From assembly GCF_024362485.1 (NCBI RefSeq), contig NZ_CP101456.1, positions 2,914,001 through 2,978,000 of the forward strand: a DNA stretch of 64,000 nt, given 5' to 3'. The position numbers were made by a program, and so were the translations under genes. Under the pieces are notes generated by a model, which was given only the letters and a program-made list of their open reading frames with translations, did not search any database and was not told the DNA's origin. Position 1 is the stretch's first letter, and each line of letters starts with the position of its first letter. Positions 12,047 through 52,778 of the stretch are shown here, in pieces. Source of the DNA: Natronobeatus ordinarius (GTDB lineage Archaea; Halobacteriota; Halobacteria; Halobacteriales; Natrialbaceae).

Positions 12047-13498
12047 TCAGCTGACCGGATCGCCGCTTCGCCAGGCGTCGATCACGTCGCGCAACAGATC
12101 GGTATCGATCTCGCTGCCGCGCCAGTTGTCGATCGCGTCGCGAAGGCCGTCGGTCTCGACGACGCCGTCTTCGTTGGTGTACGGCTCGAGGGGGCTCTCG
12201 TCATCGTCCTCGGCTGCGAGTTCAGGGTATCCGTCGGTGGTCGTCCAGGTGCCGTCGAAATCGAGGTCGTCCATCTCGTCCTCGGCGGAGGCACCCTGCA
12301 TCTCGTCCGTGGACAGTCCGGTCCCTGAGCCCGTTCCGCCGTCGACCTCGCCGAAGGCGGAATCCATCACATCCGAATTGTAATACACGTCTTCGACGGT
12401 GGCCTGGTTCAGCCCGGCCACCCCGCCCTCGTTAGCCAGTGGTCCGGAGGCTGCTCCCGTCGCGTACGACGTTCTGATCTCTGCCTGCTGGACGTTTTCA
12501 CCGACTAACGCACCGACGTTGTCGTTACCGTTGATCGTCGCACTCCCTCTGGCGTAGGAATTTTCGATCACGCCATCGTCGGAGTTCTTTCCGACCAATC
12601 CGCCGACGCCGGTCGAGGTCCACGAGAGGTCGATATCAGAGACATCACCCGTCGCCCACGATTTCGAGATCGTCCCCGTATTCTCTCCGACCAATCCACC
12701 CAGGAAGGACATCGCGCCTTCGACGATTCCCGTCGCAGAGGCGTTCGTGATGCTTCCGTTGTTCTTTCCAACCAATCCGCCGACAGTGATGTCACCAGTT
12801 ACGGGCCCCGTCGCGTGGGAGTCCACGATGGAGCCGTCGTTACGACCGACCAGCCCACCGGCAAAATCAGCTTGATACTGGTCCTCCGCAGTAACGGCCC
12901 CGTTCGCCGAACAGTCGGTAATCTCACCCCCCGATCCACCTGCGATGATGCCGACGTTATTCCTCCCTGTCACACCGGGCACGTCGACGTGAAGGTTCGT
13001 TACTTCCCCATCGAAACCGATGTTTGCGAACAACCCGATGTAGTCGTCCCCCGTTCCAGTTCTGTCGATCGCGAGACCAGAAATCGTGTGGCCGTTTCCG
13101 TCGAGCGTTCCGTCGAACCGCCACGTACTGGTCCCGATCGGATCCCATCCCTCGCCACCGTTCGCCGAGGGGGCCGCGTAGTCGTCGTAGCCGGCCGTCT
13201 CCTCGTCCAGGTCGTCGATCAGCACGAACTGGTCGTCCATGTTGGACGTGACGTTCTCGAGTTGCCCCCACGTCTCGATCTGGTAGGGGTCCTGTTCGGT
13301 ACCGGAACCGCCGGCAAACTCATCCGCACTCACGGTTCCACTGAACCCAACGACGGCACCCGTGAGCCCAACCCCGATCGTCGTGAGTGCCGTCCGTCGC
13401 GAGATCGATTCACTGGCTCCAGCCTTGCGCCCGGTTCGCTGATCCGCATCTCGTGTGCCCGCAACTGCTCGTCGCTTCGATTCGTTCTGCCTCTCCAT
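12047..13498 (-). CDS. Tat-exported GLUG-repeat surface protein with C-terminal dockerin-like module
   Basis: A 483-residue secreted protein. A twin-arginine signal (SRRTALTTIGVGLTGAVVG) lies at about residues 34-52. The body contains repeated GLUG-type segments (GGLVGKNNGSITNA, GGLVGENTGTISKS, GGLVGRNDGSI) of about 25-30 residues, which form a right-handed beta-helix-like stack. The last 44 residues are the dockerin-like module with DNW and DAW ends, shared with four other proteins here. The ATG at 13498 is preferred over a GTG three codons upstream. The role is likely adhesion or cell-surface structure; there is no enzymatic motif. It lies downstream of a similar GLUG protein in the same direction. 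Confidence 0.85.
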   Translation of the reverse strand: MERQNESKRRAVAGTRDADQRTGRKAGASESISRRTALTTIGVGLTGAVVGFSGTVSADEFAGGSGTEQDPYQIETWGQLENVTSNMDDQFVLIDDLDEETAGYDDYAAPSANGGEGWDPIGTSTWRFDGTLDGNGHTISGLAIDRTGTGDDYIGLFANIGFDGEVTNLHVDVPGVTGRNNVGIIAGGSGGEITDCSANGAVTAEDQYQADFAGGLVGRNDGSIVDSHATGPVTGDITVGGLVGKNNGSITNASATGIVEGAMSFLGGLVGENTGTISKSWATGDVSDIDLSWTSTGVGGLVGKNSDDGVIENSYARGSATINGNDNVGALVGENVQQAEIRTSYATGAASGPLANEGGVAGLNQATVEDVYYNSDVMDSAFGEVDGGTGSGTGLSTDEMQGASAEDEMDDLDFDGTWTTTDGYPELAAEDDDESPLEPYTNEDGVVETDGLRDAIDNWRGSEIDTDLLRDVIDAWRSGDPVS

Positions 13499-13886
13499 AC
13501 TGTTCACTTACGATGACTGTGTATATTTGTTAGGTGATCTGATAGTAATGTATGCGATGAGTTCAGAGTAAGTTCTCGGGGAAGCCACACGACGGGCTGA
13601 GAAAGCCGAGTGCTGAGTGGGCCCATGGAATCGGCCCGTTCCACAACTGTCGTCGCTGGTCAGCACTCCCACAGTGTCCGCGCCGTCGTATCGCTCCTGC
13701 TGCCAGCCGTACTGGTCACGGAGCGCATCCGTTCGGTCGAAGAGCGACGGCTACGGTGGCGAGCCTCCCCTGCCGGCTCATGGGTCACGATCGAACCAGC
13801 AGCTCACGGCTCAACTGTGACCGACGTCGATCGTCACGTCACCGCACTCGAGTCCAAAACCACCGTTTTCGCAGGGACGGCCGTCG
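13499..13886. other. 388-bp intergenic region between two GLUG genes
   Basis: This contains the AT-rich promoter region of the downstream GLUG gene near 13510-13560 (minus strand). The remaining bases show no recognisable gene. Reading frames there are arginine-rich and look spurious. Confidence 0.5.
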
Positions 13887-15386
13887 TCAGACGACCGGGT
13901 CGCCGGATCGCCAGGCGTCGATCACGTCCCGTAACAGGTCGGTGTCGATCTCGCCGCCCCGCCAGTCGTCGATCGCATCCCGGAGCCCATCGGTCCCGAC
14001 GATCCCATCGCCGTCAGTGTACGGTGTGAGGGGGTGCTCGAGCTCCCACGCGAGCGCCGGGTACGAATCGGTAGTCGTCCATGTGTCCGCGAAGTCGAAC
14101 TCGAGCAGGTTGTCCTCGGCGTCTTCGCCAGTCATGTCGTCGGTCGAAAGTCCGGTTATGCCGGTGGTATCACCGGAACCGACGCCGTCGTTCTGAGCCA
14201 GTTCGGGGCTGTTCTCGAAGTCCCAGTAGGAGTCGGTTACGTCACCGTCGTTCTGCCCGATGAGACCGCCGTGGTCGGAGTCGTCCGTCACGTCTCCCGT
14301 CACCATGCCAGTGGCGTACGTCTCAGTTACCTGCCCGCTACTGCCGACGTTTCCGACGAGTCCACCCACCTGATTGCTTCCGTTGACGTCGCCGGTCGCG
14401 TACGATCGCTCCACGACGCCCTCGTTGATCGAGCCGACGAGGCCGCCGAATCGGTATCCTGCTTTTATCGTTTCCTCGTAATCGCCCGTCACGTTGCCCG
14501 CGGTGTAGGTGTTGGCCACGTACCCGCTTTGGATCTCTCCGACGGCACCGCCAACGTACATTCCACCGTCGACGTCGGCCGCCGAAGCGGAGTTCTGAAC
14601 GACGCTGGTGTGAAATGCGTCATTGGTGTCCATCACTCCGACCAGCCCCCCGATGTAGTCCCCGCTCCCACGAACCTGGCCGTCGACGTGAGCGGAGTCG
14701 ACCGTTCCGTTCACGAGCGTGCCGACCAGCCCACCACCGTTGCTCCCGTAGTACGCCCGCACGTAGCCGTCGGTGACCGTCACGTCGTGCAGTTCGCCGT
14801 CCGTCAGCTCACCCACAACCGCACCGACGTTTTCGTCCCCTTTCACGAACGGGTTCTCGAGTTCGACCGATTCGATCGTCGCGCCCGCCGCGACACCGAA
14901 CAGACCGATGTCGTTCTCGTCAGTTCGGTCGATGGTGAGATTCGAAATGACGTATCCGTTCCCGTCGAACGAGCCGGTGAACGGGTCGGACTCATCGTCT
15001 GCGATCAGGATAATCGGGTCGTCGTCCATCCTGTCACCGATCGGTTCGAACCCGTCACCACCGTTCCAGTTTGCAGTCTCGCTCGCGTCGATATCACCCG
15101 ACAGCTCGTAGTGCGCCGAGAGATTCTGGTTTATCGCCTGCAGTTCGTCGACGCCGTGAATCCGGTACGGATCGTCCGGCGTCCCGTCTCCCTCGAGGTC
15201 ATCCTCGAGGACTTCGACGCCGTCGGCGTGACCCGTCGCCTCGTGGTCGGCACTCTCGACACCGGCTGTCACGCCGCCGACTGCCCCGAACAGCAACCCG
15301 ATCGAGACGGCGAGCAGCAGGACACCGAGTATCCCAGCTACTTGTATTCGCGATGGCGACGACCGCACAGCGGTCCATCTGGTCAT
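13887..15386 (-). CDS. GLUG-repeat surface protein with C-terminal dockerin-like module
   Basis: A 499-residue secreted protein. A long hydrophobic signal (VAGILGVLLLAVSIGLLFGA) spans about residues 17-36. The region DDPYRIHGVDELQAI starts a module type also seen in the giant protein. GLUG repeats follow (VGAVVGELTDG, GGLVGTLVNGT, GGLVGSINEGVVERSYATG), then a linker with SYWDFENSP. The protein ends in the shared DW/AW module. There is no PGF-CTERM tail or C-terminal membrane helix, so retention must rely on something else. It is transcribed as part of a run of five surface-protein genes on this strand. There is no detectable active site. Confidence 0.85.
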   Translation of the reverse strand: MTRWTAVRSSPSRIQVAGILGVLLLAVSIGLLFGAVGGVTAGVESADHEATGHADGVEVLEDDLEGDGTPDDPYRIHGVDELQAINQNLSAHYELSGDIDASETANWNGGDGFEPIGDRMDDDPIILIADDESDPFTGSFDGNGYVISNLTIDRTDENDIGLFGVAAGATIESVELENPFVKGDENVGAVVGELTDGELHDVTVTDGYVRAYYGSNGGGLVGTLVNGTVDSAHVDGQVRGSGDYIGGLVGVMDTNDAFHTSVVQNSASAADVDGGMYVGGAVGEIQSGYVANTYTAGNVTGDYEETIKAGYRFGGLVGSINEGVVERSYATGDVNGSNQVGGLVGNVGSSGQVTETYATGMVTGDVTDDSDHGGLIGQNDGDVTDSYWDFENSPELAQNDGVGSGDTTGITGLSTDDMTGEDAEDNLLEFDFADTWTTTDSYPALAWELEHPLTPYTDGDGIVGTDGLRDAIDDWRGGEIDTDLLRDVIDAWRSGDPVV

Positions 15387-15583: not shown

Positions 15584-16864
15584 CTACGAGTTCGGGTCCG
15601 CCGCCCCGTTTGGCTCGTCCGACGTCAGCGTATCCGAGTGCTCGCTCGAGTCTGCCGTCTCCGCCGTCGTCGTCACCGTCCCGTTCGGTAGCTTGTACGT
15701 TACGAACTGGAACGCTCGTTGGACGGCGTTGCCGTCGGAATCCTCGAACTCGACAATGAGGTCGCCGGAGTTGCTGGTTATGCGCCACTGGGCATGGTTG
15801 ACTGGCGTCACGACGGTCACATAGTTGTTGAAGAAGTAATATTCGTTAGTGAAATTGATCCGGTAGCGCTCTCCACCGCTGTTCCACTGGGCACTCTCGA
15901 CGTTGACGGCGTTCTCGATCGACCCATCGGCGTTGATGTGGCCCTTCGCGATCGGGCCGGCCGTTCGCTGCGGGGTTTCGTCCGCGAACGCGAGCTCGCC
16001 ACCGAGTTCGGTGTCGCCGGTCGTCTCGTGGTCGCCGTCCGTCTTGCTGTCGCCGGAGGAGTACACCCCGTAGCCCGACCCCGACGAGTCAATTCCACCA
16101 ACGGCCCAGCCATCCGGTGTATAGCTTCGCCCGAGAACCCCGTAGGCCATCCCGCTCGTCGCCGCCGCCATCCCGAAGACGCCACCAGCATCGACCACCC
16201 CGTCGTCGTCGCCACTCAGATCGGTGACGCCGGAGACGCCGATGCCCGAGCCCGTGAACGAACTGTGGTCGTAGTCGTCCGAGGTAGCGAAGCCAGCGAC
16301 ACCCCGTCCGTTGACGGATTCGGAGACGCCCCTGACGCCGTGGGTGGTTTCGTCGCCGGTCGCCGTTCCTTCGACTCCGGCAGGAACGACTTCCGGGGTC
16401 GAACCGTTGTTCGCGTCGGCGTCGGCGATTCCGGCAACGCCGCGGGTTTCCGCCGCGACATCCGTGGCGGATGCGTGGCCGGTGACGCCGGTGGCGTCGT
16501 CGTCGTCCGTCGTCGCGACGATCTCGGTCGCCTCGAGGTCGACCGTGTGCAACGCGTTGAGGGGGCGATCCGCGGTTCCGACCTGCCCCTGTGGCTGCGT
16601 CTGAGCGGTGGCCGTCCCGGCTCCGAGGCCCAGTAACGCGAGGGCGCCACCCGCCTGCAGGACGCCGCGGCGACCGACCGACAGCGTTCCGCCGTCACTG
16701 GACGGTGGGGCCGCCGGACCGTCGTCGACCAGTTCGTCGATCCGATTCTCCTGTCGCTCGATCGTCTCCTGCTGGCTCTCGATGATCGATTCGAGCGCCT
16801 CGATGCGGTCTTCGATGGACTGTTCGTCGGTCGTCTCCGTCGATCGCTGTGGTTCGTCAGTCAT
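15584..16864 (-). CDS. beta-roll fibre protein with N-terminal coiled coil and internal Tat signal
   Basis: A 426-residue protein. Residues about 16-46 form a coiled coil (LESIIESQQETIE core). A twin-arginine motif then occurs unusually late (GRRGVLQAGGALALLG, Arg65-66), followed by AQTQPQGQVGTADRPLNAL, a segment also found in the S74 protein. The middle (about 120-300) is Gly/Val-rich with repeats such as GVRGVSES, GVAGFATS, GIGVSGV, GVFGMAA and GVLGRSY, which suggests a beta-roll. The C-terminal 130 residues form a different, non-repetitive beta domain. It lacks the DW module. The ATG at 16864 is chosen because the upstream extension is not conserved-looking. It is probably a surface fibre exported already folded. 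Confidence 0.75.
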   Translation of the reverse strand: MTDEPQRSTETTDEQSIEDRIEALESIIESQQETIERQENRIDELVDDGPAAPPSSDGGTLSVGRRGVLQAGGALALLGLGAGTATAQTQPQGQVGTADRPLNALHTVDLEATEIVATTDDDDATGVTGHASATDVAAETRGVAGIADADANNGSTPEVVPAGVEGTATGDETTHGVRGVSESVNGRGVAGFATSDDYDHSSFTGSGIGVSGVTDLSGDDDGVVDAGGVFGMAAATSGMAYGVLGRSYTPDGWAVGGIDSSGSGYGVYSSGDSKTDGDHETTGDTELGGELAFADETPQRTAGPIAKGHINADGSIENAVNVESAQWNSGGERYRINFTNEYYFFNNYVTVVTPVNHAQWRITSNSGDLIVEFEDSDGNAVQRAFQFVTYKLPNGTVTTTAETADSSEHSDTLTSDEPNGAADPNS

Positions 16865-17059
16865 GAGTTTCCTCGTTTCGTTTGGTCTCGGTTTCGGCGT
16901 TTCGCGGTTGCTCGTCCTCACTCGCCCGTGATGCGTTCGGTGCATCGCTCACCACCCTGTGGTCGATTGACCCGGATACCGCCGAGCGCGTTCCGGGACG
17001 CTGGGTGTCCGCTCTCGAAGCGGTGATTCCCGGTGCGGTTCGCTCGAGCGGCGCCCCCA

Positions 17060-17932
17060 TCACGTGACCACCTCGCCGGATCGCCAGGCGTCGATCACGT
17101 CCCGTAACAGGTCGGTGCCGATCTCGCCGGATCGCCAGTCGTCGATCGCGTCGCGGAGTCCGTCGGTGCCGACGGTTCCGTCGTCGCCGGCGTACTTCGC
17201 GAGACCGATCTCGGTCTGGAACGTCACGTCGTGCTCGCCGCCGGGGAGCGTGAACGTCACCTGGCCGTCCTCGACGGTCGACTCGAGCGTCGAGCCGTCG
17301 ACGGTCGCGACCACTTCCGTTCCGTCGGAGAGGTTCGCCTCGGCGGGCTCGAGCGTGAGGTCGAACGCGGCCGGTGCGTCGTAGGCGAGGTCCGTCTCGT
17401 CGCTGTCGTAGTCGACGGCACCGAACGAGAGCGCGTCCACCGCCCCGTCGATGGCCACGGCGTCGGCGTCGGCTGGGTCGATCCGGAGCGTCGCGTCGAC
17501 GGCCGAGATGCAGGTGACCGATCCGGTGCCACCTTCGTAGATGAGCACACCCGGTCCGTCGGTGCTGAAGGTCACGTTGCCGAACGCGACCGTTTCATCG
17601 TCGAGGAACTCCGGATACGGCGACCCGCCGGGACCGTCGTCCACAACTTCGAGGCCGGTGTCGGTCACCCAGACCGGACCCGTGTCTTCGCCCACTGCAC
17701 ACGTCAGGTCGGCGGGGTCCTCGAGCGACGCCGGCTCGAGGTCGTGTTGTGTGACCAGTTCGAGATCGCCCATCGAATCGTCGATCGGCTCCGGTTCGTC
17801 GTCGCCGACGATGCTGGTGACGGTGTCTCCGACCCCGGCTCCCGCGGCGGCGCCGACCACGGCTGCGAGGCCGACGAGGAGGACCATAGAGAGGAGGGCC
17901 AGCCTCGAGTCGCCGATCGAGCGATCAGTCAT
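17060..17932 (-). CDS. small secreted protein with C-terminal dockerin-like module
   Basis: A 290-residue protein with an N-terminal signal or anchor helix (LALLSMVLLVGLAAVVGAAA). An acidic beta-rich body of no recognised family follows, containing two Cys about 60 residues apart (LTCAVG and VTCIS). The C-terminal DW/AW module ends the protein. Its start overlaps the end of the S74-domain gene by 8 bp, so translation is coupled and the two products are probably made in fixed proportion. The body ends with a strand-rich segment like a small Ig or carbohydrate-binding fold (EVVATVDGSTLESTVEDG), which is inference. It may be the partner, cap or anchor of the S74 fibre. Confidence 0.75.
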   Translation of the reverse strand: MTDRSIGDSRLALLSMVLLVGLAAVVGAAAGAGVGDTVTSIVGDDEPEPIDDSMGDLELVTQHDLEPASLEDPADLTCAVGEDTGPVWVTDTGLEVVDDGPGGSPYPEFLDDETVAFGNVTFSTDGPGVLIYEGGTGSVTCISAVDATLRIDPADADAVAIDGAVDALSFGAVDYDSDETDLAYDAPAAFDLTLEPAEANLSDGTEVVATVDGSTLESTVEDGQVTFTLPGGEHDVTFQTEIGLAKYAGDDGTVGTDGLRDAIDDWRSGEIGTDLLRDVIDAWRSGEVVT

Positions 17933-19421
17933 CCGCGGTCACCTCCGGGGTCGCGACGGCCTCATCGCGCTCGAGCTCCTCGACTCGAGACTCGAGGTCG
18001 TCGATCCGTTCGTCGCGGTCTGCCAACTCGGCGGCGAGACCCTGGACGGCGGCGAACAACACGCCGTCGGCATCGATCGTCTGAATCCCTTCGTCGCTGC
18101 CACCGAGTCCGAACGCCTCGAAAAACTCGCCGGCCATCGGCCCCATGTGGCGGGTGTCGGTCTGCCAGTTGTACGACCAGGTGCTGAGCTCGAGGTTAGC
18201 CACTTTCTCGAGGACGGCTTTCGCATCGACGGGAGTAATGTTCGTTTTCGATTCAGCGCTGCTGATAGCGGACCACGAAGTGTCACCGTTGCCCATCCAG
18301 ACGCCCGCGTTGCCCTCGACGGAGTCGGTGCGGAAGTAATAGCCGTTTTGGAACATACAGTAGAAGCGATTGGCGATCCCGGTCGAGTGATTTTCAGTCT
18401 CGGTGTGGGAGTCAGTGAAGACGAACTGGCCGGGGCGCGAGGCATTCGCGTTTCTCCCGGCGACGACGCTGTAGGTTCCATCAGCCGTATTGTTTCGGCC
18501 ACCCAGTACGGTCGAATGCTGCCCGCTAGCGGTGTTTTCGTAGCCGCCGCCCACCGTTGCGTTCCAAGCGCTGGCCTCGTTTTTCTCGCCGCCACCGACG
18601 AACGCGTTGGTCCCGCCCGCTTGATTTTGATCGCCACCACTGACCGTCGAACGTGTCCCGTCGGCCGTATTTTGAAAGCCGCCGCCAACGGTGGATCGGC
18701 TCCCACTCGCTTCGTTCACATCCCCGCCAGCGACGGTCGATCGGTTCCCGCTGGCTTCGTTGTGTTCGCCCCCGCCAACTGTCGAAGAACCGCCGCTGGC
18801 GACGTTGTCGCTGCCACCGCCGACCGTTGCCTGCTCGTCGCCAGTCTCGTTCCCGAGGCCGCCCCCGATCGTCGAATACGATCCGCTGACGGTGTTTGGA
18901 GCGAGGGATTCCCCACCTCCGCCGATCGTCGCGCCGAAGCCGTCACCGTCCACGCTGTTCGTGGAGTGGCCGGCGATCACGTTCCCGGCATCCCCGCCGT
19001 CTCCGGCAGTGAAACGAAGCGCGCGCTCACTGCCGACGAGAACGTCGAACGGCGTTTCGCCGTCGGGCACACCCTGGAGTTGCTGCGCGTAGAGTGCGTT
19101 CAGCGGCCGGTCGGCGGTCCCGACCTGTCCCTGCGGAGTCGCCGCGCTGGCCGACGACGACATCGCTCCCAGGCCGGCCAGGCCCGCGATCCCGGCCAGT
19201 GCTGAACGTCTGCTGACCAGCGAGAATCCACTCGAGTCGTCCCGATTCGTTCGCTCGTCCGTTTCCTTCTCGAGTTTCTCGATCGTCTCCTGCTGCGTCT
19301 CGTTTCGATCCTCGAGTTTTTCGATGGTCTCCTGCTGGGATTCGATGATCGACTCGAGTCGCTCGAGTCGCTCGTTGAGAGACGACTCGGCCGTTGAGGA
19401 CGATCGTGTTTCGTTTATCAT
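17925..19421 (-). CDS. YadA-like head repeat protein with S74 intramolecular chaperone and pre-Tat coiled coil
   Basis: A 498-residue protein. Residues about 14-55 are coiled coil. A twin-arginine signal starts at Arg71-Arg72 (SRRSALAGIAGLAGLG). PQGQVGTADRPLNAL follows. Residues 176-325 are ten 15-residue repeats of the type NxASGxxSTVGGGxx, the pattern of trimeric-adhesin (YadA/Hag) head rolls. Residues about 386-465 match the peptidase S74 / endosialidase intramolecular chaperone domain (SAESKTNITPVDAKAVLEK, then HMGPMAGEFF, then DGVLFAAVQGLAAEL). A short coiled coil ends the chain. S74 domains trimerise and often self-cleave at a conserved Ser; Ser387, 388 or 391 could serve. Such domains are typical of phage tail spikes and bacterial fibres. 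Confidence 0.85.
   Translation of the reverse strand: MINETRSSSTAESSLNERLERLESIIESQQETIEKLEDRNETQQETIEKLEKETDERTNRDDSSGFSLVSRRSALAGIAGLAGLGAMSSSASAATPQGQVGTADRPLNALYAQQLQGVPDGETPFDVLVGSERALRFTAGDGGDAGNVIAGHSTNSVDGDGFGATIGGGGESLAPNTVSGSYSTIGGGLGNETGDEQATVGGGSDNVASGGSSTVGGGEHNEASGNRSTVAGGDVNEASGSRSTVGGGFQNTADGTRSTVSGGDQNQAGGTNAFVGGGEKNEASAWNATVGGGYENTASGQHSTVLGGRNNTADGTYSVVAGRNANASRPGQFVFTDSHTETENHSTGIANRFYCMFQNGYYFRTDSVEGNAGVWMGNGDTSWSAISSAESKTNITPVDAKAVLEKVANLELSTWSYNWQTDTRHMGPMAGEFFEAFGLGGSDEGIQTIDADGVLFAAVQGLAAELADRDERIDDLESRVEELERDEAVATPEVTADD
18447..18896 (-). repeat. ten in-frame 45-bp repeats encoding the YadA-like head
   Basis: Ten consecutive 15-residue repeats (protein residues 176-325) follow the consensus N-x-A-S-G-x-x-S-T-V-G-G-G-x-x. 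At DNA level the copies have diverged, so this is an old structural repeat rather than a recent expansion. The spacing is exactly 45 bp throughout. Confidence 0.85.
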
Positions 19422-36634: not shown

Positions 36635-39600
36635 TCAGTCGCCGCGTTTCCACGCGTCGACGACCGCCAGGAGGAGGTCGGAATCGATCACGCCCGCTCG
36701 CCAATCGCTGATCGCCTCGCGGAGCCCGTTCGTCTCGACGACGCCGGTTTCCTCGTCACGATAGTCGTCCACACTCGGTTCGGCTGACGGTTCGTCGCCA
36801 AACGCGCCGACCGTGGTGAACTCGGTAACGGTCCCCATCACGACCTGCCGATCGGTGTCGACGGTCGAACCCTCGACCTCGGACCAGCTCCCGTCGTCGT
36901 CTTTCCACAGCGAGAGTGTCTCCTCGTCGATGTCGCCGATCTCGACTGCACCGTAGTGGAGCTCGAGCTCGAGCCAGCCGTTCTCGTCGCTGACGTTCTC
37001 GAGTGCGACGTATTGGCCGAGACTCACTGTCTCACCGGGTGCATCGGCGGGTGATGATACGGGGACGATCTCGACGTTCTCTCCCTCGAAGGAAGCGGTC
37101 ACGTCGTCCATCTCGAGCGCGTCGAACGCGACGTGGGCCTCCGACTCGAGTTCGGCGTCGGCCACGGAGTCGAGTCCGTGATCGGCCATCGATTCGGGTT
37201 CGACGTCGCCCATCGACTCGAGTCTGACGGCAACCGACGTGACGTTGGTGACAGACGAGTCGTCGACCGTTCCGTTCGACCCGACAGTCCAGATCCCAAC
37301 GTCGCTGCCGTCGACGGCGGCGTTCGAGAGCGCGAACTCCCCGACGCCTTCAGCGGCGATTCCGATCTCGCTTCGGGGGACGTCCACGTTCGACAGCGTC
37401 GCGCCGTCGACCATCTGGAGTCCAACGCCTACGCTTTCCTCCGCATCCCCGACGGCGACGACCTCCTCGAGCGTCAGGTCGGTCGAGACGACGGCGAAGA
37501 ATCCCGCGTCGTCTCCGATGGCGGTGGTGTTCGTCACCTCCACGCCGTGGGTGTCGACCGCGGCGAACCCAATTTCCGATCCGTCTGCGACGACGTCGTC
37601 GAAGGCGACGTCGGTGACGCCTTCGAGGCGGATTCCCGCGGCGTCGTTGCCGACCGCAGAAACGCCGTCGAAGGTGTTTCCAGCGCCGACACCGGATTCG
37701 GGAGGCTCGTCTGGGACGACCCCATCGTGTGAGACGATCTCGAGGCCGATTTCGTTCTGGAGGGCGGCCACGCCGGTGAACGCGTTCTGTGTCGAGTCCT
37801 CGAGTGAGATCCCAACGTCGTACCGGATTGCAATCACGTCGGACACGGTGAGTTCGTCGGCACCGAGGAGGTCGATACCGACGCTGCCCCCGGCGGGCGA
37901 TACGTCCGGATCTGTCGTTCCGTCGGCGGAGACGAACTCGATCCCGCCGCCGGATACGTTCTCGAAGACGACGCCGCGTTCCCAGCCGGCGACCGAGACG
38001 GTTCGGACGGTGACGTTCTCGATACCGGCGTCGTCCCCGTTTGCGTGAATCGCAACTCCCCCGCTCGTCGCTCCCTCGTTGGTAATCGCGTTCTCACCGC
38101 CGTCGAGCACCACGTCGCTCACGGTGATCTCAATACAGGAGCCCTCACCGTCGGTCGTGAGGTTCTCCTCGAGTTCGTAGACGCCAGGTCCGTCGATCAC
38201 TCGACAGTCTGAGACCGTGCTGGGATCGAGCACCTCGAACGACTCGATCCTGGTCGCCTCCTCGGCGTTGTCGGCAACGGCGGTCACGGTCGCCGCATAG
38301 GAGTCGGGTACGTCGATCGTGCCGACGTCGAAGGCCACGGTCGTGTTCGAACCCGCCCCGAGCGAACCGGCGTCGGCCGTCTCATCGAACACCGTACCCG
38401 TTGTGTCGCCGACGAGTTCGAGGCTGACCGCGAGGTCATCCGTGTCGACGCCAGCGGTCTCCTCGACCGGAATTTCGACGGTGCCGTAGTCGTCGTCCGC
38501 CTCACCATTGGGGAACTGGTCGGCGAAGTCGCCGATTTCGATTGCTGCATTCGACGGCGTAGCGAACGCCCCGAACGTCGAAAATTCCGTCACGTTCGCC
38601 GTCACCACCCCTCTCTCTGGGTCGACGCTCGAGTCTGCGATTGGCTCCCACTCGCCCTCATCCGCGTCGAACGTCCACAGCGAGAGCGTCTCGAAGTCGA
38701 CGCCCTCCAGATCACCTGCCACGTAGCCGAGCTCGAGGTGCAACAGTTCACCCCTCTCGTCGCTCGTCGGTTCGGCCTCGAAATAGCGATCGATGGAGGT
38801 CTTGTTTTCTGGGGGCGTGGGGTCGGGTAGCGCTCCAGGATCGACGGGGTCGACGCGAACGTTGTGAGCTTCGAACGAGAGCGTCGTGTTCGCCGCCGTG
38901 GACGCGCCGATGTCGAGTCCCTCGGCGGAGGTCCGCTCTGAATCGTTTTCGACGACCAGCGCAGCCTCGTCGGTGTCGTGAATCGTCGTGTCGTCGAGGT
39001 CGGTATCGGTCGACCTGAACTGCGTCCCCATCGAAGTCTCGAAATCGGACACCAGCACGCCCACGCCGCCGCCGGTCACGACGTTCGAGGCCAGCGTCGT
39101 GTTGATTGCACCCTGGAGGTGGATGCCTGCATTCTCGTTACCGAGGAGCGTATTCTCCGAGAGAGTGGTATCGGTGGATTCGCGTCCCAAAATGATACCT
39201 TCGTTCTCGTTGGCCTGAATGGTGTTTCCGGTGACAGTGGTGTTCGCGGCTCCCGTGCGAATGCCGATACCGTCGTAGTTCGATTCGATAGTGTTGTTCT
39301 CCACGACGGTGTTTTCCGAAGAGCTTCGGACGTGAATTCCGAACTCGCCGTTTTCCGCGACGTAGTTGTCGCTCACGACCGCGTCGTCGCCTCCCACGTC
39401 GATGCCGATTCCAGAGCTGTTGATAGCGGTGTTGTTTACCACCGTGTTGGGCTCGTCGACCCGAATACCCCAGTCCGCGTGGTCTCTGGCGGTGTTGTGC
39501 TCGAGCGTGTTGCCCTCCCCGTCCCTGACGTAGATGCCACGCTCGTCCGTCGCCAAGCCCTGTTCGAGGTTTCCGACTGCAACGTTGTCACGGACGTCGT

Positions 39601-41503
39601 TGTGGTCGGAGCCCTCGTCGAAGTATAAGTCATTGCCCCGGGTGCGGAACTCGCCTTCAAATGCGTTCTCGGACGCCTGGTTCCCGTATACGTCGTTGTT
39701 CGAGGAGTCCTCGAATAAGAAGCCGTACTCTCCGTTCGCAACAGCCGTACTGTTCGTGACTGCACTGTCTTCGACACCGTCGAACGCTACGCCCGTATAC
39801 CACCCCTCCACGGTGACGTTCGTGACGGTGACTCCCTCGACACCGGTGACCAGCACGCCAGAACCTGAGTCGTCACCCGAAACCGTGTGGTTGTTCCCGT
39901 CGAAGTGCACGTCGTCTGCGGTTATCTCGATACACGTCTCGGTGGCATTGATATCGGTGGTCAGTTCGTACTCACCGGGTTCGTCGATGACGGTACACTC
40001 GGTGATCTGCCCGTCGTCGACCTCCTCGATGGTCAACGTCCCGGTCTGGTTACTGTCGTCGCTGAAGATCCCGTGTTCGTACGTTCCAACGTCCAGGTCC
40101 TCAGATTCGATGTCGGCGAACTCGACAGATTCGGTTTCGTTGCCACCGAGTTCGACCGTCTGAGTGGCGGCTGTGGTGTGGTCGATGCGGAGTTCAACGA
40201 CCTGTTCGTCGACTGCGCCTCCGGTGTTGGTAACGACCGCCGAGACGTCGACCGTTTCACCCTGCTCGACTGTCGCGTTATCGGGCTCGAGTTCGCTCAC
40301 CTTGAAGAACGCGTCTTCCTCGAGCGGTGCGAGGAACGTCACCGCGTTCGCGAGGATACGGTCGCGATTGCTGGTCTCTTCCATGTAGAGGCCGTCAGTG
40401 ATCGAGAGCAACACCTCGTGGCCGTCGTCGGTCACTCCCACTGCTGGCCCGTCGGTCTCCTCGCTCCCCTCACCAATCTCACCGAGTACGTCGCCGTCGT
40501 CGAATCCGTCGAACCACGTTCGGAATACTCCCTCTTCACTGAAGAGATCGATTGTCTCTCCGGCTTCACCAACGCCCTCGAACAGCGGGTGGTCCGTTGT
40601 GATCGTCAACTGGGCGTCGTCACCCCCGGCGTCGGAGACGGAGTCTGGGTCGTCGAACACCGCTGTACGCGTACTGATCGCACCGTCAAAATCAGCGTCC
40701 TCGAACGAGACCAGGCCCGTCTCCTCGTCGAGTTCGGCGTACAGCGCTTCCACCGCGTCGCTGTCCGGGTCCTGGCCGTAGTCGGCGACAACGATCACGT
40801 CGTAGTCGTCTGCCGCCGTAGAAGCGCTCGAGCCGAGGACCGCTTCGGGTAGAACGACGTCCAGCTGATACTCACCCGCGACGCCCGCGTCCTCGAGTCC
40901 GGGCTCGAGCGCGAACGCGATGACGTCTTCGGCGAACCACTCGTTGCTCGAGACGACGGCCACGTCCTTCGCCGCGTCCTTCTCGATCGTCACGAAATCC
41001 GTCGCCGCGTCGAACTCGCTTCTGACTTCGACGGTGACGTCCTGGCCGAAGTCGTCGTCGCCAGTGGGCCACTCGAGGGTGACGCTGCCGGTGTCACCGG
41101 GTGCGACCGAGACGTTCTGGCTGTCCGCGAGGGTGTCCGCCACGAAGTCACCGCTCTCATCGTAGAACAGTTCGACCGGCTCGTCGGCGGCGTCGTTGCC
41201 GAGGTTCTCGATCACGACCGCGACCGTCAGCGTCTCGCCGACGGTCACGGGTTCGTTCGTGTCCGTGATCTCGACGGTGTAGTACGGCTCGTCGAACTCG
41301 AACAGCCCGACCGTCAGGGGACTGAAGCCGATCTCGTCGTCGACATCGGCAGTGACGACACCTCGATCGGCGTCGACCTCGGCGTCAGGAACGAACTCCC
41401 ACTCACCGCCGCCGTCGACCCAGAGTGTGAGCGCGTCGGCGTCGCCCTCGAGTGGATTGCCCGATTGGGAACCGAGCGCAAACGTTCGCGCTAAATTCGC
41501 CAT
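36635..41503 (-). CDS. 5'-truncated giant surface protein: CARDB-like and beta-helix domains, dockerin-like end
   Basis: From its first ATG this gene encodes 1622 residues, but there is no signal peptide. It begins inside a domain recognisable from the neighbour (ALTLWVDGGGEWEF against ALWTHDGEEWSPV). It continues with CARDB-like Ig domains (VTVGETLTVAVVIENLGN) and a long right-handed beta-helix with Cys-pair starts (ITECTVIDEPGEYEL). Then come a further beta-domain, a second beta-helix (VSDCRVIDGPGVYEL), and the DW/AW module. The downstream part aligns closely in plan with the C-terminal half of the 3692-residue protein. Either a pseudogene or a rearranged gene whose 5' end was lost. The open frame continues upstream to 42349 only as a shadow of the neighbour's sequence. 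Confidence 0.75.
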   Translation of the reverse strand: MANLARTFALGSQSGNPLEGDADALTLWVDGGGEWEFVPDAEVDADRGVVTADVDDEIGFSPLTVGLFEFDEPYYTVEITDTNEPVTVGETLTVAVVIENLGNDAADEPVELFYDESGDFVADTLADSQNVSVAPGDTGSVTLEWPTGDDDFGQDVTVEVRSEFDAATDFVTIEKDAAKDVAVVSSNEWFAEDVIAFALEPGLEDAGVAGEYQLDVVLPEAVLGSSASTAADDYDVIVVADYGQDPDSDAVEALYAELDEETGLVSFEDADFDGAISTRTAVFDDPDSVSDAGGDDAQLTITTDHPLFEGVGEAGETIDLFSEEGVFRTWFDGFDDGDVLGEIGEGSEETDGPAVGVTDDGHEVLLSITDGLYMEETSNRDRILANAVTFLAPLEEDAFFKVSELEPDNATVEQGETVDVSAVVTNTGGAVDEQVVELRIDHTTAATQTVELGGNETESVEFADIESEDLDVGTYEHGIFSDDSNQTGTLTIEEVDDGQITECTVIDEPGEYELTTDINATETCIEITADDVHFDGNNHTVSGDDSGSGVLVTGVEGVTVTNVTVEGWYTGVAFDGVEDSAVTNSTAVANGEYGFLFEDSSNNDVYGNQASENAFEGEFRTRGNDLYFDEGSDHNDVRDNVAVGNLEQGLATDERGIYVRDGEGNTLEHNTARDHADWGIRVDEPNTVVNNTAINSSGIGIDVGGDDAVVSDNYVAENGEFGIHVRSSSENTVVENNTIESNYDGIGIRTGAANTTVTGNTIQANENEGIILGRESTDTTLSENTLLGNENAGIHLQGAINTTLASNVVTGGGVGVLVSDFETSMGTQFRSTDTDLDDTTIHDTDEAALVVENDSERTSAEGLDIGASTAANTTLSFEAHNVRVDPVDPGALPDPTPPENKTSIDRYFEAEPTSDERGELLHLELGYVAGDLEGVDFETLSLWTFDADEGEWEPIADSSVDPERGVVTANVTEFSTFGAFATPSNAAIEIGDFADQFPNGEADDDYGTVEIPVEETAGVDTDDLAVSLELVGDTTGTVFDETADAGSLGAGSNTTVAFDVGTIDVPDSYAATVTAVADNAEEATRIESFEVLDPSTVSDCRVIDGPGVYELEENLTTDGEGSCIEITVSDVVLDGGENAITNEGATSGGVAIHANGDDAGIENVTVRTVSVAGWERGVVFENVSGGGIEFVSADGTTDPDVSPAGGSVGIDLLGADELTVSDVIAIRYDVGISLEDSTQNAFTGVAALQNEIGLEIVSHDGVVPDEPPESGVGAGNTFDGVSAVGNDAAGIRLEGVTDVAFDDVVADGSEIGFAAVDTHGVEVTNTTAIGDDAGFFAVVSTDLTLEEVVAVGDAEESVGVGLQMVDGATLSNVDVPRSEIGIAAEGVGEFALSNAAVDGSDVGIWTVGSNGTVDDSSVTNVTSVAVRLESMGDVEPESMADHGLDSVADAELESEAHVAFDALEMDDVTASFEGENVEIVPVSSPADAPGETVSLGQYVALENVSDENGWLELELHYGAVEIGDIDEETLSLWKDDDGSWSEVEGSTVDTDRQVVMGTVTEFTTVGAFGDEPSAEPSVDDYRDEETGVVETNGLREAISDWRAGVIDSDLLLAVVDAWKRGD

Positions 41504-41589
41504 CACCAGCTCTCCGCGATTCCGGGAGGGACGCTCATCAGCGCTGGCAACAGGGTGCGGGCCCCTGCCGAGGAGATTCGCCTCGAGGC

Positions 41590-41880
41590 TTATACGGCCG
41601 GCTCGCCGGATCGCCAGGCGTCGATGACGTCCCAGAGCAGGTCGGTGTCGATCTCCCCGCCCCGCCAGTCGTCGATCGCTCGGCGCAGTCCGTCGGTGTC
41701 GACGACGCCGTCGTCGTCCACGTAGTCGGCGAGGGTCGGTTCCGAGCCGACCGGCTCGCCGCTTCGCCAGGCGTCGATGACGTCGCGAAGCAGGTCGGTG
41801 TCGATCACCCCACCCCGCCAGTCGTCGATCGCCGCCCGCAGTCCGTCGGTGTCGACGACGCCGTCGTCGTTCACGTAGTC
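41590..41880 (-). repeat. two tandem dockerin-like (DW/AW) modules at the giant protein's C-terminus
   Basis: Two copies of the module, about 41590-41724 and 41743-41880, are separated by a short linker (EPVGSEPTLADY). Each has a first half DDGVVDTDGLR-AIDDWRGG and a second half IDTDLLRDVIDAWRSGE. The DNA of the two copies is strongly similar. The same module ends the proteins at 12047, 13887, 17060 and 36635. Confidence 0.85.
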
Positions 41881-44800
41881 GGCGAGGTCCTGCTCGTCCT
41901 CGAGGACGACGAACGGCACCGTTCGCGTTTCCGCTTCGGCGTTGTCGGCGTCGGCAGTCACCGTCGCCGTGTACGTGTCGGGTGCGTCGATCACGCCCAC
42001 GTCGAAGCCGAAGCCCTCGCCGTCGCCCTCGAGTTCGCGGTCGTCGACCGTCTCGTCGAAGACGACGCCCTCGTCGTCGCCGGCAATCTCGAGGGCGACC
42101 TCGAGTCCCTCGGTCTCGACGCCTGCGAGTTCCTCGACCGGAATCACGACGGTGCCGTAGTCGTGACCGGCCGTCGCGTCGGGGAACTCGGCTGCAAAGT
42201 CGCCCACCTCGAGGACGGCTTCTCCGGGGACGCCCGCCGCGAACAGGCCGACTGTCACGTCCTCGACGAGAGTGGCGGTGACGACCCGGCGGTCGGTGTC
42301 GACGGTGGACTCCTCGATTTCGTGCCACGCCTCGCCGTCGTGGGCCCACAACGAGAGCGTCTCCTCGTCGAGGCTCCCGAGCTCCGCTTCGGTGTAGTGG
42401 ACCTCGAGGTCGAGCCAGCCGTCGGCTTCCAGCGGCTCGACGGCGACGTATCGGTCGAGGCTCACCACCCCATCCGGGCCGTCGGCCGGAGCCGTCGTCG
42501 GGAGGAAGGTGACTTCCTCACCCTCGGCGGAGACGACGTCGCCGTCTATCACCACGTCCTCGAACCGGACGTCGGCCTCGTCGTTGAACACGACTGCAGC
42601 GTATGTCACGTCGGTCAGGGTCGCGTTCTCGACCGCCCCATCAGACCGGTAGACGTTGAACCCCAGCGATCCACCGGTCATCGTGGCGTCCTCGAGGTGA
42701 AGGCCCGTCACGTCGACCAGGTGGATTCCGGTCAACCCCCCGTATACGTCGGCGTCAGAGACCGTGACGTCCTCGACCAGCTCGAGGGTGAGGCCGTTTC
42801 CGAACTCGTCGGTGGCCTCGGCGGAGACGTCCTCGAGGGTCGCGTCGCTGACGCCGCCGACGTAGAGCCCGGACGAGCCGACCGCGTCGGTGGCAGTCAC
42901 CTCGAGGGCCTCGCCGTGGACGACCATGATGCCGTTGGACTCGCCGATCGCGACGGTTCGATTCATCGTCGTCCCCGTCGCTTCGTGGAGGTAGATGCCC
43001 TGACCGGCGCTGTCGGCCGCGGTCACCTCCTCGAAGGTGTTTCCGACGCCGGTGGTCCCCTCGGGATCTCGCTCACCGGGGAACTCGAGGCCGCCAGAGA
43101 CGCCGATCTGCGTCCCCACGGTGACGAGATCGAAGACGTCGGTGTCGTTCGCCTCGATCATCGAGAGGCCCATCCTGACGTCGGTCACGTCGACCGCCGA
43201 CACCTCGAGTCCCTCGGTCCCGCGCAGTTCGATCCCGACGGTTCCGAGTGTCGGGTCGCCATCGGCGTCGGGGGTGCCGTAGACGTCGACGAACTCGAGG
43301 CCGCCGCCGGTGACGTTCTCGAAGGCGACACCGGTCTCCCAGCCGTCGACGGTCAACTCGCGGACGGTGACGTTCTCGAGTCCCTCCGCGCCGCCGTCGA
43401 CGGCGATGGCCGTCCGGTCGCCCGAGGCCGTCTCGTGGCTCAGCACGTGGTGGCCGCCCTCGAGGACGACGTCGCTCGCGGTGACCTCGAGACACCTCCC
43501 CTCATCGTCGGTCGTGAGGTTCCCCGCGAGTTCGTAGACGCCGGGGTCGTCGATCACCCGGCAGTCGGTGATCCCGTCTGGATCGACCAGTTCGAACGGC
43601 TCGCTCCGGATCGTCGGCTCGGCGTTCATCGCGTCGGCCGTCACTGTCGCCGTGTAGGTGTCCGCCTCGAGGATCGGCCCGACCTCGAACTCGACGGTTG
43701 CCTCCTCGCCGGTCAGTTCGAGCGTGTCGTTCGTCTCGACGAACGCCTCGCCCGTTTCGTCGCCGACGATCTCGAGGGTGACCTCGAGCCCCTCGGTCTC
43801 GACGCCTGCGAGTTCCTCGACCGGAATCTCGACGGGGGCGTAGTCGTGGCCGGCCGTCGCGTCGGGGAACTCGGCGGCGAAGTCGCCCACCTCGAGGACG
43901 GCCTCGTCCGGAGCGGTCGCCTCGACGGTCAGCGTCCCGGTCTGGTTTGCATCCTCGCTGAAGACGCCGAACTCGTAGGTGCCCGGCTCGAGTCCGGCTG
44001 GTTCGATCTCTGTGAACGCGACCGATTTGGTTTCACCACTCCCGAGCGAGACGGACTCGGTGGCGACGACGTCGCCGTCGACGCGGAGTTCGACCGGTTG
44101 CTCGCCAGCTTCCTCACCGATGTTGGTGACGGTCGCCGAGACGTCGAACGACTCGCCCGATTCGACCGTCAGGGCGTCGGGCTCGAGGTCGCTCACGTCG
44201 AAAACGGCCGGCTCTGGTGGTTCCTCGACGGTCAGCGTCCCGGTCTGGCTACTGTCGTCGCTGAAGACGCCGAACTCGTAGGAACCGGGCTCGAGGTCGG
44301 CCGTCGTCACGTCCGCGAACTCGACGAATTCGGTTTCGTCGCCGGCGAGTTCGACCGTCTGGGTGGCGACCGCACTGCCGTCGATGCGGAGTTCGACGAC
44401 CTGTTCGTCGAGTTCCTCGCCGACGTTCGTGACGGACGCCGAGACGTCGAGCGTCTCACCCTGTGCGACCGTCGGGGCGTCGGGCTCGAGGTCACTCACC
44501 TCGAACTGGGCCGGTTCTGGTGGCTCCTCGACCGTGAACGTCACCGATCGGGTGGTTTCGTTCACGGTCTCTGCGTCGGCGGTCACCGTCGCGGTGTACT
44601 CGTCGGTGGCGTTCAGCTGACCGACCGCGAAGGTGAACTCGTTGTGGGCACCCCAGATTGTTTCGTCGTCGATCGTCTCTTCGAACACCACGCCTTCGGT
44701 GACACCGGCCACCTCGAGTGTGATCTCGAACCCGTCAATGACCTGGTCCATCGTTTCGTCGACGGTAATCGTGACGGTGGCGTAGTCGTGGCCGGGTTCG

Positions 44801-47800
44801 CCGTCGGGGAACTGGTCGGCGAAGTCCTCGATCTCGAGGATCGTCTCGTAGACGGTCACCTCGGTCGTGGCGGCGTCGTCTGCGGTCTCGACGGTCACCT
44901 CGGCGGTGTCGCCGTCGTTCCATTCCGTCTCCCACTCGAGGACGACCGACTCGTTCGACTCCCCACCCTCGAGGGTGACGTCCGTCGCGTCCCGTTCGGT
45001 TCCCTCGAAGTCGAGCAGCCCCACGGTCTGGGTGCCCGGCTGGTCCCCCGCGTTGGTCACGTTCGCCGTGACGGTCAGGACCGCACCCGGGTCCACCGGC
45101 TCGTTCGTCTCCTCGATCGAGACGAGGAACTCCGCCGGCGCCTCGACCGTCAGGGTACCCGTCAGTTCGTCGTCGCCGGCCGCGTCGGCGACCGACACCG
45201 CGTACTCCTCGGCCTCGAGGTCGCCCGTGACGTTCTCGAAGCCGACCGTCTCGGTCTCGTCGGCGGCGAGCTCGTCGGTCGTCGCGTTCGCCTCGAATGC
45301 GTCGCCGAGTTCGAGCTCGATGGTGAACGAGCCAGCGACGTCCCCGGCGTTGGTGACGTCGACACTCACGTTCGCCTCGTCGCCTTCGGTGATCGTCGCC
45401 GTCTCACCCGATTCCGCGATCTCGAGGTCACTCAGCGCGGCCGTCGCGGGCTCGAGCGTCTCGAACGTCTCGCTCCGGGTCGTCGGCTCGGCGTTCGTCG
45501 CGTCGGCCGTCACCGTCGCCGTGTAGGTGTCCGCCTCGTCGATCTCGCCGACGTCGAACTCGAGGGTGGCTCCTTCGCCAGCCAGCTCGAGCGTGTCGTT
45601 CGTCTCAGTGAACACCGTTCCCGTTTCGTCACCGACGATTTCGAGGGTGACCGCGAGGTCGATCGAACCCTCGCCGGCGGTCTCCTCGATCGGAATCTCG
45701 ACGGTACCGTAGTCGTCGCCCGCCTCGCCGTCGGGGAACTGGTCGGCGAAGTCGCCGATCTCGAGGTCGGCGATCGGCGGCGTGGCGAACGCGCCGACCG
45801 TCGAACCATCCGTCACGTTCCCGATCACGACCCGTCGGTCGGCGTCGACGCTCGAGTCGGCAACCGGGCTCCACTCCTCGCCGTCGTGAGTCCACAGCGC
45901 GAGCGTCTCCTCGGCGGCGTCTTCCGGCAGGACGTCGGGGTCGTAGGAGAGTTCGAGGTCGCGCAGTTCGCCCGCGCCCGAGACGGTCACCTCGACGTAC
46001 CGCTCGGCCGAGTAGGTTTCCACAGTGTTGTCCGTGGGCGCCTCGGCGGGGGTGTCGGTCGCCTCGACGACGACGTTCTCGCCCTCGAACGAGAGGGTGA
46101 CGGGCTCGCCGACCGTCGCGTTCGCCGTCAGCGATTCGACGGTCGCGCCGGTCACGTCGCCCACCTCGAGCGCAGCCGAACTCGCGTCGTGCTCGACGGT
46201 GAGAGCAGCGACGGTCACGTTAGATTCGCTCCCGTCGTCGATGACGACGGCGGGCACACCGCCCGCGTCGGCCACCTCGAGCGCGTGATTGTCGCCGTCG
46301 AAGGCAACGTCAGACGCCGTGATCTCGAGGATCGTGCCGGGGCCCTCGAGGTCCGCGTGGAGACTGTACGTCCCCGATTCGTCGATCGTGATCGGTTCCT
46401 CGGCCGTGGCGGGAACGGCGCGGTCTTCCCAGGCGAGCGCCGGGTAGTCGTCGTCGACGAGCGTCCACGCCTCCTCGTACTCGAGGGGTGCGAAGACCGC
46501 CGGGGCGACGTCGACGAACTGGTCGGTCTCGAGGCCGGTCATGCCCTCGAGTTCGCCGCTTCCAATTCCCTCGTCCTGGCCGGTGGCGTCGACGTCCCAG
46601 TAGCCGTTGGTCATCTCGGGAGACGTCTGTGGGTTGCGACTGCCGACGAGCCCGCCACCGTCTTCGACCGCGCCGGTCGCGTAGACACCGGTTATCTCGC
46701 CCGAGGTAAAGTATCCGACGAAGCCGCCGGTACCGCCCCCGGAGACGGCTCCCTGCGCGTAGGAATTGTTCACGGAGCCACCGAACATGCGCCCGGCGAA
46801 TCCACCGACCCGGTTACCAGTCGCGGTGACGTCGGCGGTCGCGACGGAGTCGGTCACCTCGCCGCCGTGCACCCGGCCGGCGAAGCCGCCAACCTCACTG
46901 TCGCCGGAGACGTCGCCGGTCGAGACGGAGTCGGTGACCGTGCCGGAGGACGCCACCGCGCCGACGAGGCCGCCGACTTCGTCGATGCCGGTGACGGTCC
47001 CGGTCGCGGTCAGTTGCGTCGCCTCACCACTGAAGACACGGCCAACGGCGCCGCCGACCCACCGGTCACCGGTCACGTCGACGTCCGCGGACACCGCCTT
47101 CGCGTCGGTGTTGCGAAGCACGCCGACGGCCCCGCCCGTTTGCGTCCCGCCGGAGGCCGTGCCGGCTGCGGAGACGTGCCGGAAGTCACCGTCCACCTCG
47201 CCGGCCACCACTCCGGTGTTCCGATCGCCGGTGACGTTCCCGGTCGCGGTCACGTTCGTGATCGAGCCGTCCACCTCGCCGGCTACCAACCCGGTGTTAT
47301 CACCACCGGTGACGTTCCCGGTCACGGTCACGTTCGAGATCGAGCCCTCCTCGACGACTCCGACCAGCGCGCCGGTGTGTTCGTTGTCCTCAGCGTCGGG
47401 GTTGGACCAGACGTCGACGTCGAGCAGCGACACGTTGTGGATCTCGTGTCCAGCGCGTCCGTCGTCGAACACCGCGAACAGGCCGGTTGGTCCGTCACCG
47501 TCCGGGTCGTCGATGGTCAGTTCGGTGATCTCGTACCCGTTGCCGTCGAACGAGCCGGTGAAGGGCGCGTCCTCGTCCCCGATGGGCGCGAAGGCTGTGT
47601 GGTCGTTCATGTACGGCGAGCGCGCGGCGTCGATGTCGTTCGTCAGGACGTAGTGCGCGTCGAGTCCTGGCCCGTCCTCGTCGTCGCCGATGCACTGTAA
47701 CTGATCCAGCGTCCCGACCTCGTAGGCACCCTCGTCGGTCTGCTCGAAGTCGATCTCGGCACAGTCTAGCGACGTCGGGTGTGGCATGCCGACCTCCCAG

Positions 47801-52668: not shown

Positions 52669-52778
52669 GTACGGGGAATCGCCCGCCATCCCTTCAATCT
52701 TTTCATATCTGAAATCAAGAAATAAATTCTGCTCATCGAGTGAGTGGAACGCAGAACGTGAGAACACCAGCGGAAGGA

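Follow-up and report, generated by a model that had tools for sequence, protein, structure and literature searches.

A candidate two-gene module for Tat-type surface fibres with a coiled coil ahead of the signal in haloarchaea

The fibre locus

The window considered here is a stretch of 64,000 nucleotides from the haloarchaeon Natronobeatus ordinarius (G000:C1:2914001-2978000, where G000 is the genome holding the window; all other labels in G and L denote the other genomes and loci compared). Five genes, P0002, P0003, P0001, P0004 and P0005, form a same-strand run from 19421 down to 12047 (Table 1). P0002 and P0001 encode fibre-like proteins with candidate twin-arginine translocation (Tat) signals. 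In both, the twin arginine is internal and is preceded by a coiled coil. P0003 encodes a candidate partner protein.

The original prediction had described, from the sequence of the window, two proteins of 426 and 498 amino acids that share a coiled coil before an internal twin arginine and a segment after it, one of them with ten YadA-like head repeats and an S74 end, and an overlapping protein with a DW module at 17060. All these observations are confirmed by the open reading frames (ORFs) and by the searches described below. The interpretation given to them is partly supported and is extended here to a conserved two-gene module.

Table 1. Coordinates of the fibre genes, their domains and the neighbouring genes within the window
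Feature	Residues	Position	Strand
P0002, Tat-signal fibre (498 aa): pre-Tat coil, UspA1/YadA-like head, S74 chaperone		17925..19421	-
P0002 pre-Tat coiled coil; RLERLE (RhxxhE) at 18-23	15-57	19251..19379	-
P0002 twin arginine	R71-R72	19206..19211	-
P0002 PQGQVGTADRPLNAL, capping-loop-like start of predicted mature fibre	96-110	19092..19136	-
P0002 UspA1/YadA-like head, ten repeats	164-324	18450..18932	-
P0002 Peptidase_S74 match, Ser387 and Lys392	387-437	18111..18263	-
P0003, partner protein (290 aa), overlaps P0002 stop by 8 nt		17060..17932	-
P0003 conserved partner domain, all-beta in model	68-242	17207..17731	-
P0003 C-terminal DW module, replacing transmembrane helix of most relatives		17063..17194	-
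P0001, second Tat-signal fibre (426 aa): same N-terminal cassette, GV-G repeat body		15584..16864	-
P0001 pre-Tat helix; RIEALE (RhxxhE) at 20-25	13-48	16721..16828	-
P0001 twin arginine	R65-R66	16667..16672	-
P0001 PQGQVGTADRPLNAL	91-105	16550..16594	-
P0004, same-strand neighbour: GLUG repeats and DW module		13887..15386	-
P0005, neighbour: Tat-type signal, GLUG repeats and DW module		12047..13507	-

The head of P0002 consists of ten GG repeats, with the exact 15-residue spacing in nine. It matches UspA1_rep (2.9e-11, Pfam), and its nearest solved relative is the UspA1 structure 3pr7 (E 2e-27). There is no Pfam match to the C-terminal YadA anchor barrel in P0002, the C-terminus being occupied by the S74 domain. 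The match to Peptidase_S74 (PF13884) scores 32.4 bits against a cut-off of 22 (Pfam); thus the region does not align poorly with known domains of this type. The catalytic-type dyad is intact, with the lysine at position +5 from the serine. Among 31 haloarchaeal S74 proteins, including one cut short (L078), a serine five residues before the lysine was found by script in 25 and by eye in four more (L061, both proteins of L076, and L079). The dyad supports a chaperone of the self-cleaving type in P0002, with cleavage predicted. An S74-like C-terminus that has lost the catalytic lysine was observed in L060:5970-7196.

This S74 domain is the only one in G000, and P0001 has none. No significant match to P0001 was found by family and profile searches, and its body, in which a GV-G repeat leads into a beta-rich end, appears to be a different, unrecognised repeat fibre. 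P0001 has two close orthologues with 62-64% identity. In its AlphaFold model, which is poor as a whole (predicted local distance difference test score, pLDDT, 37), residues 12-48 form one helix.

The shared N-terminal cassette

The sequence LESIIESQQETIE is identical in the two fibres (residues 24-36 of P0001 and 22-34 of P0002) and lies ahead of the twin arginine, whereas PQGQVGTADRPLNAL follows it in both. The longest stretch common to the two proteins is 15 residues, compared to at most six in 2000 shuffles of the N-termini. The codons differ at five of the 13 positions of LESIIESQQETIE and at ten of the 15 positions of PQGQVGTADRPLNAL, and every difference is synonymous. Therefore the protein sequence is conserved rather than freshly copied at the DNA level, and recent gene conversion of the coil core is ruled out. 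There is no start codon between the coil and the twin arginine, and thus whatever translates the signal also translates the coil. On the level of motifs, both proteins have the twin arginine, an uncharged hydrophobic region and an A-x-A-like site, and they are predicted Tat substrates. A-x-A-like sites, typically A-S-A-D, follow the hydrophobic stretch in nearly all proteins with this N-terminus.

The coil, the twin-arginine signal and the segment GQ[VI]GT...PL..LY together form a cassette joined to varied bodies: S74 fibres and others, such as a C1q/BclA-like end in L044 (C1q, 21.3 bits, under its cut-off of 23.7). Of 293 genomes from the order, 9 contain relatives of P0001 and 29 contain relatives of P0002. 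About 20 of 392 genomes match a cassette profile along most of its length, the weaker matches being to Tat signals alone. A profile search of the cassette against PDB gave weak coiled-coil and Tat matches only. In G377 the orthologue of P0001 is a mosaic: its coil and linker are 58% and its signal part 88% identical to P0002, whereas the body is 69% identical to P0001 and 26% to P0002. Thus cassettes have been exchanged between paralogues. The reading of PQGQVGTADRPLNAL as a private tag of this gene pair was rejected, as the motif occurs in relatives and fits the spacing of bacterial-fibre capping loops. There is no support for P0001 and P0002 coils that are matched to each other so as to form heterotrimers, since the paralogous coils in G100 and G377 are no more alike than others.

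The coil itself has a recognisable pattern. RhxxhE has been published as a motif for trimerisation (Kammerer 2005; described in PMC5940361), with arginine at g, hydrophobic residues at a and d, and glutamate at e; RLERLE of P0002 and RIEALE of P0001 conform to it. The pre-Tat coils of 25 haloarchaeal relatives, aligned on the first RhxxhE, start with the heptad R/K-h-x-x-L-E, with arginine (23) or lysine (2) at g, and leucine at d and glutamate at e in all 25. Position a is hydrophobic in 88% of second and 87% of third heptads, mostly isoleucine, valine or leucine; glutamine is frequent at d. RhxxhE precedes the twin arginine in 14 of 17 cassette proteins versus 3 of 49 other Tat ORFs (p = 5e-9 in a Fisher test whose rows are not independent), and two of these three exceptions (L116, L123) are themselves fibre-like with a coil before the twin arginine. 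None of 14 Tat ORFs from the window and a 400-kb sample of G000 has it. In 325 control proteins, the motif was found in 9 of 71 coil-like windows and in the first 90 residues of 23 proteins. S74 fibres that lack a signal peptide and stand beside tail-tube-like genes have no such coil at the start, and therefore the coil goes with export rather than with S74. These comparisons support the view that a coil of the trimeric type ahead of the twin arginine is a trait of the family, the trimeric state being predicted from the motif.

The S74 fibres that directly follow tail-tube-like genes, mostly without signals, are L069:527-2161, L075:5278-6953, L076:5336-7460, L077:5165-6761 (no upstream gene is listed for this locus) and L079:2691-5322. 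As judged from the tube-like sequences of the contractile-tail type, these are probably extracellular contractile injection system (eCIS) loci. In L075 and L077 the fibre is followed by a tiny Tat-signal protein ending in a DW module.

The partner protein

The domain of P0003 given in Table 1, used as a profile, was found in 37 of 392 genomes, and the pair of fibre and partner occurs in other haloarchaea. In the chromosomal loci examined the partner gene adjoins a cassette fibre, and the family is encoded beside nearly every such fibre. In most chromosomal pairs the start and stop codons of the two genes overlap by 8 or 4 nucleotides or are separated by a 1-nucleotide gap; such tight junctions occur in the window, L043 (twice), L050, L053, L056, L064, L110 (twice), L111 and L113. 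The gene order is reversed in L051, and in L186 and L187 the partner has no intact fibre beside it. The model of the domain is all-beta with pLDDT 89, and it has no match at E <= 0.001 in PDB or BFVD.

A transmembrane helix lies at or near the C-terminus of most partners, in several of them after a CARDB-like domain. The proposal that P0003 may anchor the fibre thus gains support from a family that is fibre-adjacent and mostly has such helices. In P0003 the place of the helix is taken by the DW module, which suggests a role of this module in surface retention or docking. It is a C-terminal module of about 45 residues with the pattern TDGLRDAIDDWRSGEI.TDLLRDVIDAWRSG and no Pfam match, present in 23 copies in G000 in ORFs of very different sizes; apart from P0003, the copies in the window are at 13887-14033, 12047-12187 and 41600-41886.

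In L054 the partner domain is fused to a seven-transmembrane (7TM)-PAS-histidine kinase (Pfam), and in L074 and L194 the same fusion was identified by similarity. The fused genes (L054:8495-11332, L074:7466-10297, L194:6811-9723) lie downstream of a Tat S74 fibre. One possibility is that these proteins are fibre-linked sensors.

Related pairs in spindle-virus elements

A second group of partners is still detected (E down to 4.5e-25) when the profile is restricted to chromosomal partners. These are proteins of 550-750 amino acids with several C-terminal transmembrane segments, encoded in provirus-like or extrachromosomal elements. In G148 one partner copy lies on a 23-kb contig and another is chromosomal. 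Contig C4 of G265 carries four copies, of which three are spaced by 14,077 bp, and a further copy is chromosomal. The LSV-48N-like element itself is repeated in G265: it occurs four times on contig C4 (L180), three of these at the same spacing, and once in the chromosome (L197, G265:C1).

Several provirus-like elements have a group of proteins in common with Haloferax virus LSV-48N (PMC12714723). Among them is CDS0012, which is homologous to the partner proteins of these elements (E to 4e-88), although a search of CDS0012 for the partner domain as such found no match. For the virion protein of LSV-48N that is most abundant, a beta-sandwich at 365-549 and weak similarity of the C-terminus to an SSV19 tail protein are reported (PMC12714723), and on sequence grounds we infer that it is CDS0012. 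Small Tat fibres with a pre-Tat coil are encoded in the LSV-48N-like elements L180, L181, L182 and L190. The virus-type spikes of L114, L117, L118 and L188 have another conserved short helix, Q[AI][IL]REI[IV]R[DE]E, before the twin arginine, which replaces the RhxxhE coil. In L182:6653-7836 the spike is split into an ORF with the coil and Tat signal (150 aa) and an ORF with a body that looks LamG-like by eye (244 aa).

The pair of fibre and partner occurs both in haloarchaeal chromosomes and in LSV-48N-like spindle-virus elements. Query proteins from LSV-48N and the L181 element gave no matches at the window locus or at other chromosomal pair loci. Therefore these loci are not proviruses, and for the window locus this candidate explanation was rejected. 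The original prediction of a domesticated phage fibre holds in part: the link found is to the spindle-virus elements, which carry the same pair, and not to tailed-phage spikes, as P0001, P0002 and P0003 have no match in 50,697 phage records. On plasmids there was no match for P0001 and, for a partner protein, only to the CARDB part; single-protein scans of viral contigs, which reach close relatives only, gave no match.

Possible mechanism and alternatives

We favour, with some reservation, the explanation that P0001 and P0002 are surface fibres which work with a dedicated partner, P0003, in a two-gene module. Their N-terminal coil would link three chains ahead of Tat export and be removed together with the signal peptide. 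The domain matches, the conserved RhxxhE coil, the S-x4-K dyad, and the linkage and tight coupling of the partner gene can be read from the sequences; from them we infer the trimeric state, the order of assembly and export, the use of Tat, the cleavage and the binding of fibre to partner. Tat cargo consists of folded proteins, and ends of the S74 and C1q types fold as trimers. Three chains would zip in the cytoplasm via the coil ahead of the twin arginine, so that they are in register by the time the C-terminal domain is synthesised. This domain, which serves trimerisation and is S74 in P0002, would then complete folding, and the assembled trimer with its three Tat signals would be exported. 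Cleavage by signal peptidase after the A-x-A site would remove the coil, leaving a mature fibre with the G-x-V-G-T...P-L segment at its start and with P0003 keeping it at the surface. In P0002, the S74 domain would cleave itself off at Ser387. According to PMC13323110, the Tat core has the composition (TatBC)3 and binds one signal peptide for each TatC in vitro; data on MdoD in the same paper suggest that homo-oligomers assemble first and are exported afterwards.

Several observations weigh against this explanation. The RhxxhE counts overstate independence, because the sequences compared are related by descent and their alignment was anchored on the motif. Fibre relatives with a Tat signal and no coil occur in L055, L060, L061, L069, L073 and L076, and an operon in L053 has two fibres, one with the coil and one without; thus the coil is not strictly required. 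In L051, L054 and L180 it is very short. The quality of the P0001 model makes a fold search on it meaningless. Finally, WceF, a trimeric protein exported by Tat, has a 28-residue Tat signal (PMC7949094).

The absence of the coil from some Tat fibres would also fit the idea that it is left over from an ancestor, or is generally found at haloarchaeal N-termini, and has no function in assembly. Haloarchaeal coils are rich in arginine, leucine and glutamate, so the motif can arise by chance. However, it is infrequent in other Tat ORFs and at the start of control proteins, the codon differences in the shared coil core are exclusively synonymous, and the coil has been exchanged between paralogues and kept; this is the least probable of the alternatives. 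Hardly more probable is an uncleaved signal, in which case three signal anchors and a cytoplasmic trimeric coil would keep the fibre membrane-bound, with some other role for the partner. A cytoplasmic coil on a signal anchor could be a natural base for a trimeric stalk, but the A-x-A-like sites are nearly universal, and the fibre would in that case have no need of a partner whose C-terminal transmembrane helix could anchor it.

Another alternative, unlikely but less so than these two, is that the coil is a docking tag that binds a cytoplasmic chaperone or targeting factor, such as a Tat proofreading chaperone, or that it holds back export to give the body time to fold. A delaying effect of this kind is thought to be exerted by the extended signal regions of trimeric autotransporters. 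The coil is located where proofreading chaperones act on Tat precursors, its glutamine-rich d layers are likely to make it weak and reversible, and some virus-type members carry a different short helix (IREIVRDE) in its place. On the other hand, no conserved extra gene was found beside the partner in the loci examined, and arginine, leucine and glutamate at g, d and e suit the geometry of a homotrimer, which needs no other partner.

If the coil does join three chains before export, it would be a built-in device for exporting pre-assembled trimers. A broader statement would be that a two-gene spike module is common to haloarchaea and LSV-48N-like spindle viruses, and that its coil, which is trimeric, cytoplasmic and removable, determines the oligomeric state in which Tat exports the cargo; this is plausible but somewhat more doubtful than not. 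Whether Tat exports homo-oligomers before or after assembly has been described as a long-standing question and is answered for one dimer (2026, PMC13323110). A cargo with a zipper before the signal, having many coil-bearing and several coil-less relatives, offers a direct test of pre-assembled export. Moreover, the confidently modelled all-beta partner domain links cell-surface fibres, a histidine kinase receptor and spindle-virus elements.

Elsewhere in the window, the region 36635-52767 contains very large minus-strand ORFs of the surface type, one of 1904 amino acids with NosD/beta-helix and one of 3725 amino acids with two DW modules.

Comparison with known systems

The MAT fibres of Bdellovibrio bacteriovorus (PMC10769870) are similar in being trimeric cell-surface fibres with exchangeable bodies, some with S74 ends containing S-x4-K (SDxxxK). 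They also have the capping-loop spacing of PQGQVGTADRPLNAL, V-G-x-x-x-x-P-x-x-x-L, as in trimeric beta-helix fibres. Unlike them, the fibres described here are archaeal and of the Tat type, with a coil before the twin-arginine signal and a linked partner gene. With the trimeric autotransporter adhesins UspA1 and YadA, P0002 shares the beta-roll head repeats. However, it has S74 at the C-terminus in place of an anchor-barrel match, and the cell that it belongs to is archaeal and has a single membrane. WceF of Pantoea stewartii is likewise a trimeric tailspike-like protein with a Tat signal (PMC7949094), but it is a right-handed beta-helix enzyme, whereas 64-70 residues stand ahead of the twin arginine in the fibres considered here. 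The Ser/Lys dyad of P0002, five residues apart, is the same as in the S74 domains of MYRF (S578/K583) and of phage endosialidase (PMC3742443), which have different bodies and different cellular roles.

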